From: Acidovorax sp. T1
Lineage (GTDB): Bacteria > Pseudomonadota > Gammaproteobacteria > Burkholderiales > Burkholderiaceae_C
Direction of reading: 5' to 3'
Length of the DNA stretch: 64,000 nucleotides
Assembly (NCBI RefSeq): GCF_002176815.1
Contig: NZ_CP021648.1
Coordinates: 1,240,001-1,304,000 of the forward strand
A program made the translations under genes and the position numbers. The stretch's first letter is position 1, and every line of letters starts with the position of its first letter. The notes under the pieces are model-generated. The model had not been told where the DNA came from and ran no database searches. It saw only the letters and a list, made by a program, of their open reading frames with translations. Shown one piece after another: positions 30,930-34,310 of this stretch.

Positions 30930-32249
30930 TTGAAGTCCCTGAACTCCCCTGAACTGGCTGCCCGCAGCCTGGCTGCGGTCTGGCACCCCTGCACCCAGAT
31001 GGCGCGCGCCGCCGTCACCCCGCCGCTGGCCATTGCCCGGGGCGAGGGCCCCTGGCTTTTCGATCTGGAAGGCCGGCGCTATTTCGACGCCAACAGCTCC
31101 TGGTGGGTCAACCTGTTCGGGCACTCGGATGCCGGCATCCGCGCCGCCATCACGCAGCAGCTCGAAACCCTGCCCCATGTGATGCTGGCCGGTTGCACCC
31201 ATGCGCCCGCGGTCGAGTTGGCGGAAAAGCTCTCGGCCCTGACTGGCGGCGCGCTGGGCCACGCCTTCTTTGCCAGCGACGGCGCCTCGGCCGTCGAGAT
31301 CGCGCTGAAGATGAGCTTTCACTCGTGGTGCAACCGGGGCCAGGCGGACAAGCGCGAGTTTGTCTGCCTGCGCAACGGCTACCACGGCGAAACCATCGGC
31401 GCGCTGGCCGTGACCGACGTGGCGGTGTTCCGCGATGCCTACGACCCGTTGCTGATGCGCGCTCACATCGTCGATTCGCCCGACACGCGCCAGGGCCCGG
31501 ACGCCGAGGCCCGCGCGCTGGCCGACCTGCGCCGCGTGCTGACCGAGCGGCGCGGCCAGGTGGCCGCCCTCATCATCGAGCCGCTGGTGCAGTGCGCCGC
31601 CGGCATGGCGATGCACGAGCCCTCGTACCTGCGCGCCGTGCGGGCCTTGTGCGACGAGTTCGGCATCCACCTCATCGCCGACGAGATCGCGGTGGGCTGC
31701 GGGCGCAGCGGCAGCTTCTTTGCGTTTGAGCAGGGCGCGTGCGGCTGGCCCGACTTCATCACGCTGTCCAAGGGCATCAGCGGCGGCACGCTGCCGCTGT
31801 CGCTGGTGCTGACCACCGAAACGGTGTACCAGAGCTTCTGGAGCGAGCAGGTCGGGCGCGGCTTTCTGCACTCGCATTCCTACACCGGCAATGCCCTGGC
31901 CTGCGCGGCGGCCAATGCCGTGCTCGACCGCTTTGCCGCCGACCAGGTGCTGGAGAAGAACCGTGTGCAGGCCCGGCTGCTGGCCGAGGCCTTCGCGCCG
32001 CTGGCCACCGACCCGCGCGTGCACCACCTGCGCCAGCGCGGCATGATCCTGGCGTTCGATGTGCGCGAGCCTGGTGAGCGGTTTGCCGAGCGCTTTCACC
32101 TGGCGGCCCGTGCGCACGAACTGCTGATCCGTCCCATCGGCGCCACCGTTTACCTGATGCCGCCTTATCTCATCGATGCGCCCACGGCGCAGTTCCTTTT
32201 TCAGGCCGTGATGGCCACGCTGGCGGAGGTAATCGACCATGCTGCTTGA
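30930..32249 (+). CDS. bioA: Adenosylmethionine-8-amino-7-oxononanoate aminotransferase
   Basis: 439 residues if TTG 30930 is the start; no good ribosome binding site is visible, but conserved sequence ([11 protein letters not shown]) begins by residue 14, so the start must be close. A class III PLP aminotransferase with [34 protein letters not shown] and the PLP lysine in TLSKGISGG. It uses S-adenosylmethionine as amino donor to form 7,8-diaminopelargonate in biotin synthesis. First gene of bioA-bioF-bioD; it overlaps bioF by 11 bases. bioB is not in the window. Confidence 0.95.
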
Positions 32250-33456
32250 CCACCTGAACTACAAACTGCAGGCCATCGCCGCCAAGGACCTGACACGCGT
32301 GCTGCGCGAAGCCGAAAGCGCCACCGCGCCGGTGCAGCGTGTGCGCGGTGCCGATGGGCAATCGCGCGAGCTGCTGATGTTCTGCAGCAACGACTACCTG
32401 GGCCTGGCCGCCCACCCCGCGCTGGCCGAGGCGCTGGCCGAGGGCGCGCGCCTGTATGGTGCTGGCTCGGGCTCGTCGCACCTCATCAGCGGGCATTCGA
32501 GTGCGCATGCGGCGCTGGAGCGTGCCCTGGCGGCCACGGTGGCGCCCGCCATTCCGAACGCCGAGGCGCTGTTTTTTTGCACCGGCTTCATGGCCAACCT
32601 GGCGGTGCTGACGGCCCTGGGCGATGCCGATGCGGTGATTTTTTCGGAAGAACTCAACCACGCCTCGCTGATCGACGGCGCGCGCCTGGCCAAGGCGCCG
32701 GTGCAGCGCTACGCCCACTGCGACGTGGCGCAGCTTGACGCGCTGCTGGGCGCGTGCACGGCCCGCATCAAGTTGATCGTCACCGATGCGGTGTTCAGCA
32801 TGGATGGCGACGTGGCCCCGCTCAATGCCCTGCTGGCGCTGGCCGAACGGCACGACGCCTGGCTGGTGGTGGACGATGCCCATGGCTTTGGCGTGCTGGG
32901 GCCGCAGGGGCGCGGCACGCTGGCGCACTTTGGCCTGCGCAGTGAGCGGCTGATCATGGTGGGCACGCTGGGCAAGGCCGCCGGGGTGGCCGGGGCCTTT
33001 GTGGCGGCGCACCCCACCGTCATCCAATACCTGATCCAGGCCGCGCGGGCCTACATCTTCACCACCGCCGCGCCGCCCGCCGTGGCCCATGCGCTGCTGC
33101 AAAGCCTGGCGCTGATGGCGGGCGACGAGGGCGCGCAGCGCCGCGCCAACCTCGTGCACCTGCAGGCGCAGCTGCGCGCTGGCGTGGACGAATTGCTGGC
33201 GCGCCATCCGCGCCTGGGCTGGCGGCTGGTGGCGTCGGACACGCCCATCCAGCCACTCATCATTGGCGAAAACGCCGCCGCGCTGCGGGTGGCCGCCATC
33301 CTCGACCGCGCCGGCCTGCGCGTGCCGGCCATCCGCCCGCCCACCGTGGCCCCGGGCACGGCGCGCCTGCGCATCACGCTGTGCGGCACGCACAGCGCGG
33401 CCGACATCGACCGCCTGCTGGCCGCACTGGCCGATGCGGCGCAGGAGCTGGCATGA
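32239..33456 (+). CDS. bioF: 8-amino-7-oxononanoate synthase
   Basis: 405 residues from ATG 32239, overlapping bioA and ending in an ATGA overlap with bioD. PLP-dependent alpha-oxoamine synthase: [42 protein letters not shown] and the PLP lysine in VGTLGKAAG. It condenses pimeloyl thioester with alanine, the first committed step of biotin ring assembly. The tight overlaps imply coupled translation of the three bio genes. Confidence 0.97.
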
Positions 33457-34310
33457 CAAACGGCTTTTTCAGCGCCGGGCCGCCCCAAGATGAAAAGCAA
33501 CCCCCTCGGGGGGGCAGCGACCCGCGAAGCGGCGGAGCGTGGGGGGCCTTTCCCATCGCCGGGCCGCCCCAAGATGAAAAGCAACCCCCTCGGGGGGGCA
33601 GCGACCCGCGAAGCGGCGGAGCGTGGGGGGCATTTTTCATCACCGGCACCGACACCGAGATCGGCAAGACCGCCATCACCGCCGCGCTCACGCACCTGGC
33701 AGCGCAGTCGGGCCTGCGTGCGGCCGCCATCAAGCCGCTGGCGGCGGGGCAGGACTGCGTGGACGGCCGCTGGGTCAACGAAGACGTGCTGCGCCTGCGC
33801 GCGGCCAGCAACATGGACCTGCGCGACGACGAGGTCGGCCCGCTGCAGCTGCGCACGCCCTGCGCGCCGCACATCGCCGCGCGCCTGGAGGGCCGCGCTA
33901 TCGTGCGCGAGACGCTGCTGGCCGCCGTGCGCGGCGTGGCCGCGCGGGCCGACATGGCGTTCGTCGAAGGCGTGGGCGGCTTTCGCGTGCCGCTCATTCC
34001 GGGCTGGGACACCGCCGACCTGGCGGTGGACCTGGGGCTGCCGGTGGTGCTGGTGGTGGGCCTGCGCCTGGGCTGCATCAACCATGCGCTGCTCACCGCC
34101 GAAGCCGTGCGTGCGCGCGGCCTGCGCCTGGCCGGCTGGGTGGCCAACACCGTCGATGCCGCCATGCCGCATGTGGCGGACAACCTGGCTGCGCTGGAGG
34201 CCGGCCTGCAAGCGCCCTTCCTGGGCCATGTGCCCCGCCTGCCAGAGCCGCACCCCGCCGCCATTGCCGCCCATTTGCCGCAGGCGCTGGCGTTGCTGCA
34301 AGCCGCATAA
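33453..34310 (+). CDS. bioD: Dethiobiotin synthetase with repeat-encoded N-terminal insertion
   Basis: 285 residues from ATG 33453. ATP-dependent carboxylation of diaminopelargonate to dethiobiotin. The catalytic P-loop GTDTEIGKT appears only at about residues 65-73, whereas in normal BioD it starts around residue 8-10. The extra 56 residues come from two tandem copies of an 84-bp repeat that encodes [20 protein letters not shown] and GAWGAF each time. Removing them rejoins MTNGFF to [11 protein letters not shown], a normal BioD start. No in-frame start codon exists after the insertion, so the extension is presumably translated. The rest of the protein is intact. Confidence 0.9.
33474..33641 (+). 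repeat. Tandem 84-bp repeat (two units) within bioD
   Basis: Units at 33474-33557 and 33558-33641 are almost identical and differ only in their last dozen bases (GGCCTTTCCCATC against GGCATTTTTCATC). Each is GC-rich with a CCCCCTCGGGGGGG palindromic core. The period, 84, is a multiple of three, so bioD stays in frame. TTTTTCA occurs both just before the first unit and near the end of the second. Confidence 0.92.

Follow-up and report, generated by a model that had tools for sequence, protein, structure and literature searches.

A dispersed palindromic repeat in two tandem, apparently translated copies at the start of bioD in Acidovorax sp. T1

The bioD gene of Acidovorax sp. T1 carries 168 bp of additional DNA, in frame after codon 6, which adds 56 residues to the predicted protein, and the locus raises the question of what this DNA is and how the gene came to accommodate it. 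The window analysed (the whole stretch of 64 kb) contains a BioD ORF of 285 aa, with no interruption along 33453-34310, whose ATG begins at 33453 and overlaps the bioF TGA at 33454-33456. The identities of bioF and bioA are presumptive and were assigned by reading the sequence. Two near-identical 84-bp units between codon 6 of bioD and the P-loop had been described in an initial annotation of this DNA, and this description was borne out. TRF placed 2.1 copies of a repeat with period 84 at 33473-33646 (95% matches), and its score of 320 was the highest of the 7 TRF rows in the window, and a direct-repeat comparison matched units 33464-33547 and 33548-33631 at 96%. The two units were identical at 81 of 84 positions, with all 3 differences located inside the first 9 bases. 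A profile search found these two copies as the sole copies in the 64-kb window, and an Rfam search of 33300-33800 returned a single weak match, under the gathering score. The features of the locus are as follows.

32239..33456, plus strand: putative bioF, an ORF named from a reading of the sequence, with the ATG of bioD lying over its TGA (ATGA overlap)
33453..34310, plus strand: bioD (dethiobiotin synthetase) with a 56-residue N-terminal extension; Pfam PF13500 covers residues 61-265 and PDB 1a82 aligns from residue 61
33464..33547, plus strand: repeat unit 1, 84 bp, from TRF, the repeat finder and the profile search
33548..33631, plus strand: repeat unit 2, 84 bp, from TRF, the repeat finder and the profile search
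33465..33471, plus strand: left target copy TTTTTCA, from comparison with the empty site of genome G032 (TTCTTCATC) and with the flanks
33633..33641, plus strand: right (native) target copy TTTTTCATC, encoding Phe-Phe-Ile of strand 1, from the empty site, the flanks and AlphaFold
33465..33473, plus strand: left arm of the stem in unit 1, TTTTTCAGC, with one mismatch against the internal arm
33489..33496, plus strand: internal arm of unit 1, GATGAAAA
33549..33557, plus strand: left arm of unit 2, TTTCCCATC, imperfect
33573..33580, plus strand: internal arm of unit 2, GATGAAAA
33645..33671, plus strand: P-loop GTDTEIGKT, residues 65-73, in which G, T, D, T, G, K and T are invariant across a 61-protein alignment

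The organism's own genome contained 17 matches to the repeat at E <=1.6e-5, bioD's included, in 15 places, and the bioD repeat is therefore not due to chance. The repeat is ~75-84 bp long, 75% GC, palindromic and without a gene of its own. Of the 47 genus genomes, 46 carried it, with at most 17 candidates scored per genome, and a search of the 84-bp unit across the bacterial family, a check proposed in the initial annotation, detected it in 146 of 200 sampled genomes and 114 of 141 genera, with at most 4 candidates scored per genome. A plasmid search produced 2 records with the repeat. The 168-bp insert is thus very probably two tandem copies of a dispersed GC-rich palindromic repeat, which apparently form a translated tail on BioD.

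Detailed analyses were performed on a non-random set of 95 loci, consisting of the 15 own-genome places and 80 loci from the upper part of the genus list; copies were located by profile, and loci were sorted by a codon model trained on four window genes. Tandem arrays reached 9 units by profile in these loci, the nine-unit array of G004 being situated at the start of a TM2-domain gene (L131). A search with the insert peptide detected 30 proteins, comprising 5 BioD proteins (P0001, P0002, P0003, P0004 and P0123) and 25 others. Five of the latter had no Pfam domain, and the rest included RsmG, TruB, Mur ligase, arylformamidase, DTW proteins and ABC ATPases; several proteins matched by the insert peptide had at least two tandem units.

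The bioD gene proved to be one among many that were hit. In the own genome, 9 of 15 sites were in frame inside genes. Merging of the 95 loci by flank similarity gave 46 independent sites, of which 19 were in frame inside genes (bioD plus 13 others in sense, 5 in antisense), while 22 antisense and 2 sense sites were located beside codirectional genes and 3 were of other kinds. Both flanks exceeded 0.1 in the codon model at 76 of the 95 loci, and the 46 site classes use all 95 loci with the commonest class per site; bioD, for which the model gave a differing frame (its left flank is bioF), was counted in frame by hand. Pfam domains in the in-frame hosts scanned were those of an AMP-binding enzyme, cytochrome c, biotin protein ligase (birA), formyltransferase (fmt), AcrB-type transporters, P-type ATPases, RecJ, RecG, biotin carboxylase, CreD, SNF2 helicase, FemAB-like, Mur ligase, HI0933-like and ABC ATPase proteins. 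The AMP-binding host reads as a putative prpE. Three of the hosts handle biotin (BioD in the window, biotin protein ligase and biotin carboxylase; the latter two at L008 and L174), which is probably a coincidence.

In-frame copies used three sense and two antisense reading frames, and this use of several frames in both orientations fits mobility of DNA and not of a protein module. No excess openness of the element was detected, 112 of 138 frames being stop-free against a shuffled mean of 118, which gives no indication that coding capacity has been selected. The 75% GC content would leave few stops in any frame, and in-frame copies may survive at tolerant loops and termini. Among 59 tested sites beside genes, 41 were open across the element, and only 4 (L139, L143, L157 and L186) had an in-frame ATG with an upstream Shine-Dalgarno-like word; given these 59 gene-flanking sites, the in-frame tally is an incomplete census. 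At L126, L139, L143, L157 and L186, antisense copies lay directly after the start codon and read as in-frame N-terminal extensions, which may represent a second route to translation.

Empty and filled alleles were compared at three further genes, with 30 loci for each. At prpE, 22 loci were empty and 2 were unmatched by the motif; filled alleles exceeded empty ones by 84 bp in three cases, 78 in one and 66 in one, and by an out-of-frame 77 bp in G025. At fmt, 8 loci were empty and 11 were unmatched by the motif, with in-frame excesses of 45, 57, 75, 78, 78, 81, 81, 81 and 165 bp (two units) and out-of-frame excesses of 80 and 265 bp. At the start of the TM2-domain gene, 19 loci were empty, 7 were filled, 3 had a degenerate remnant by eye and 1 was unmatched. 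The native ATGAARAACAARAC or a near variant was present in all 29 matched TM2 loci, and a filled example read ATGAACAAT-element-ATGAAAAAC, an imperfect duplication of ~8 bp around the start codon. bioD shows a clear duplication of its target, the TM2 gene an imperfect one and prpE a less exact one; taken across 32 sites, the signal was only weakly above chance (53 of 2000 permutations reached it).

In most copies the bases immediately to the left of CGCCGGGCCGCCCCAA form pairs with an arm that lies directly inside it, and the sequence of this pair varies by locus. The pairs were TTTTCATC/GATGAAAA at start codons, TTTTCACC/GGTGAAAA at prpE, GTTTTCTCATC/GATGAGAAAAC at L192 and GCGTCGCC/GGCGACGC at recG. 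Both sides had changed together in the one-copy bioD of G007 (TTTTCAGC/GCTGAAAA), and pairing was imperfect in both units of the own bioD. The mean arm-flank match over 32 sites was 6.69, above all 2000 permutations (mean 4.49), with matches of at least 8 nt in 14 sites, 6 to 7 nt in 7 (bioD has 6) and 5 nt or fewer in 11, such that the internal arm pairs with the flank of that same copy at about two-thirds of sites. These 32 sites were obtained after 7 of the 95 loci had been skipped for want of an anchor and the other 88 had been reduced by a filter that also merged like-armed sites. At bioD and at the TM2 start, host DNA, either native or duplicated, makes up the outer half of the stem. The arm may be a guide, may have been copied from the target as a template, or may owe its match to the hairpin being corrected afterwards through template switching. 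That the arm acts, for each element or sub-family, as a guide pairing over 6-11 nt with the target, or that the target is copied into the arm on insertion, with host DNA forming half of the stem, is put forward tentatively and with low expectation, because 11 of the 32 arms match poorly.

Single units, whether taken as RNA or as DNA, did not fold better than shuffled sequences, and the stem is therefore argued from covariation alone. Among 23 chosen copies, nine pairs were 90.7% formed, compared to 43-53% when the arms were slid, and 42 cells were altered on both sides, compared to 13 in shuffles. Two of five stem measures were less striking, the numbers of double-change pairs and of further pair types being reached in 10 and 98 of 500 shuffles, respectively. 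This set of 21 other sites plus the two bioD copies was chosen with a bias towards the stem and omits two truncated copies, L153 and the poorly matching L001, L006, L011, L174, L178, L193 and L194.

Covariation over these chosen copies would also be expected if a hairpin past the bioD start tuned translation or mRNA stability and the repeat were retained for this role. A stem at a gene start would involve the AUG in pairing, and orientation differed by context, genic copies being sense at 14 of 19 sites and copies beside codirectional genes antisense at 22 of 24 (Fisher p 1.5e-5; the orientation classes are rough and the sample consists of high-scoring copies). However, the bioD units folded no better than shuffled RNA (z of 1.21 and 0.80 on the plus strand and -0.95 on the minus strand), and close relatives differ in unit number, from 0 to 3. 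Target choice could also explain the orientation bias, since TTTTTCAT is the complement of ATGAAAAA gene starts, and this would be its simplest reading. An RNA-level role is hence considered doubtful.

The repeat was compared with known mobile and tandem elements. PMC3733652 and PMC10969869 describe in-frame translated palindromic repeats in Rickettsia and GTAG/CGTC REPs in several genera; PMC10969869 gives a length of ~150 bp for the Rickettsia palindromic elements (RPE). The likeness to these elements drawn in the initial annotation seems apt in terms of what the element does. Both are dispersed palindromes within and between genes, many copies lie in frame in conserved enzymes and TruB is hit in both. 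Copies in frame in unrelated protein genes were found here at 19 of 46 independent sites. The bioD repeat differs in being ~75-84 bp, GC-rich and outside Rickettsia, in an arm that often matches the insertion site and in tandem units inside genes. REPs and REPINs are described in PMC3733652 as short and palindromic, sometimes intragenic and translated, and single or grouped, and to this extent the bioD repeat is like them. It is longer, often lies at gene starts and is without a constant GTAG/CGTC tag; counted at any position in the copy, the tag words occurred in 2 (GTAG), 0 (CTAC), 3 (CGTC) and 7 (GACG) of 23 copies.

Mobilisation of the element as a REP by a RAYT/Y1 transposase is improbable. 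Three Y1_Tnp matches were present in the own genome, and at least one was present in 17 of the 21 genomes searched, own included, but of the 30 Y1_Tnp matches listed, the 12 whose surroundings (4.5-5 kb) were examined, the own three among them, had no copy of the repeat nearby; by this measure of proximity, 0 of 12 Y1_Tnp loci were associated with a copy. The lack of a constant GTAG/CGTC tag also counts against this origin, as does the target duplication at some sites, which is not known to be a feature of the RAYT/Y1 mechanism.

MITEs, including ERIC (RU), are non-autonomous and capable of in-frame fusions according to PMC10969869. The bioD repeat is likewise non-autonomous and in frame, and target duplication is visible at some sites though weak overall, but its ends differ and no terminal inverted repeats were seen; a search for inverted repeat pairs of at least 12 in 33300-33800 detected none. 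In single-strand elements of the IS200/IS605 type, an internal stretch of 4-5 nt is complementary to the flanking target. An internal stretch of the bioD repeat similarly complements its flanking target, but the arm is 6-11 nt, target duplication occurs at some sites and the repeat contains no transposase. As in a translated intragenic VNTR, copy number varied among kin (0-3 units) with a unit of mostly 84 bp, a multiple of 3, the exceptions at bioD being the 82-bp unit of G003 and a frame break in G004.

Comparison of the bioD start among relatives, another check proposed at the outset, was performed by querying 47 genus genomes, own included, with the whole BioD protein. A close bioD (86-100% identity) was found in 7 of the 47, a distant bioD (43-51%) was the best match in 37, and G006, G008 and G012 matched the query via the repeat alone. 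The occurrence in one genus of 7 genomes with one bioD type and 37 with another only 43-51% identical to it suggests, at the level of sequence, replacement of the bioD gene within the genus. The seven close genes had 0, 1, 1, 1, 1, 2 and 3 units, giving empty (G032), single (G007, G013, G041 and G003), double (own genome) and triple (G004) alleles; units were mostly 84 bp, with the exception of the 82-bp unit of G003. Excision of 168 bases had been predicted to restore the expected BioD N terminus, and G032 has exactly such an arrangement. The earlier proposal of an inserted, later duplicated and translated mobile repeat was thereby upheld, by a dispersed family with 0-3 copies in seven genomes and in frame, translation being judged from sequence.

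In two of these seven genomes the frame is broken within the repeat, the start codon and P-loop of G003 and G004 being out of phase through differences in homopolymer length, as might be seen if the insert were untranslated, with BioD beginning downstream or the gene dying. Frame breaks were also present in repeat copies at fmt (G003 and G032) and prpE (G025), and the GC-rich runs at these breaks are either prone to sequencing error or genuine slippage sites. An untranslated insert is nevertheless highly improbable. Beyond codon 1, no in-frame ATG, GTG or TTG occurs before codon 103 (a GTG), which lies past the P-loop (65-73), and the only possible restart codons ahead of the P-loop are ATC at 35 and 63. 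The bioD core, with a dN/dS of 0.08-0.20 over 21 pairs of the seven cores (G003 and G004 included), is under purifying selection, and no second bioD was found in the own genome, where the runner-up of four matches (E 7.9e-8) was a repeat locus; bioB is present, away from bioD. Furthermore, a related BioD entry of the database, P0001, carries two in-frame units and represents 238 member sequences, the representative being the one examined. Copies of frame-breaking length were observed at bioD, fmt and prpE (L016, L020, L214, L216 and L244) and reflect either phase variation or sequencing error.

Assembly is difficult where GC-rich repeats stand in tandem. A false duplication of the second unit in the assembly is even so very unlikely on sequence grounds, because P0001 also has two units, with other junction residues; moreover, the units differ at 3 positions, and three units are present in G004 and up to 9 at other sites (likewise in assemblies).

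The extension is present in 6 of the 7 genomes with a close bioD, yet the notion of an ancestral BioD domain can be dismissed: alignments with all 9 matching PDB sequences start only at residue 57-62, the majority consensus of 61 BioD homologues starts at strand 1, as do the more distant BioD proteins P0007, P0016, P0017 and P0029, and the DNA is a dispersed repeat. An ancestral domain, which had been named at the outset as a finding that would overturn the insertion, was refuted by the empty site of G032 together with these shorter homologues. As the distant proteins begin at strand 1, the ancestral bioD site was therefore empty, and bioD is taken from these comparisons to have gained the insert in its own lineage. 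In a bioF+bioD tree, which retained 2 of 4 outgroups, G032 (a genome 72% complete) paired with the one-copy G007 (94/97) in a poorly resolved clade. Because it groups with a one-copy species, its empty site probably reflects a secondary, precise loss rather than the original condition, of a kind that recombination across the two TTTTTCA copies flanking the insert would produce.

The AlphaFold model, built on a 61-sequence alignment, had a mean pLDDT of 84, with 203 residues at or above 90 and 48 below 50, every one of the latter in residues 1-56. Strand 1 (residues 59-65) was present and the P-loop was intact in the model, because the insertion duplicated the Phe-Phe target, and Pfam AAA_26 (PF13500) begins at residue 61. 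The extension is thus predicted to be a disordered Pro/Gly-rich tail, added N-terminally before an intact strand 1 through target duplication, which leaves the predicted fold unsplit. Other BioD proteins (P0025, P0028 and P0107) have different Pro/Gly-rich N-terminal extensions ahead of strand 1, and this end of the protein therefore seems tolerant of additions. A BioD protein from another taxon (P0042) contains a different Pro/Gly-rich insert mid-protein after VPLI, perhaps another repeat family.

Under the preferred reading, that of tandem copies of a mobile repeat apparently translated as a tail on BioD, the ribosome would read through both units from the bioF-coupled ATG, and unit number would shift by slippage or unequal recombination between the direct repeats. 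Less certainly, insertion would occur at arm-like sequences (TTTTCATC, which is in many cases complementary to an ATGAAAA start codon) and duplicate ~8 bp.

No description of the bioD repeat family was recognised in the open-licence literature, which is weak evidence of absence. The repeat at bioD represents a genuine and well-supported mobile family, translated on the evidence of sequence and apparently new to the literature; it is separate from the Rickettsia and REP cases and widespread in another bacterial family (Comamonadaceae-type). If guiding or templating by the arm proved true, an element of <100 bp would have a novel means of selecting its insertion sites, start codons among them. 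Alleles with no, one, two or three units occur at a single enzyme in closely related species, so that what a translated insertion costs, and how such repeats pick their sites, can be examined directly.
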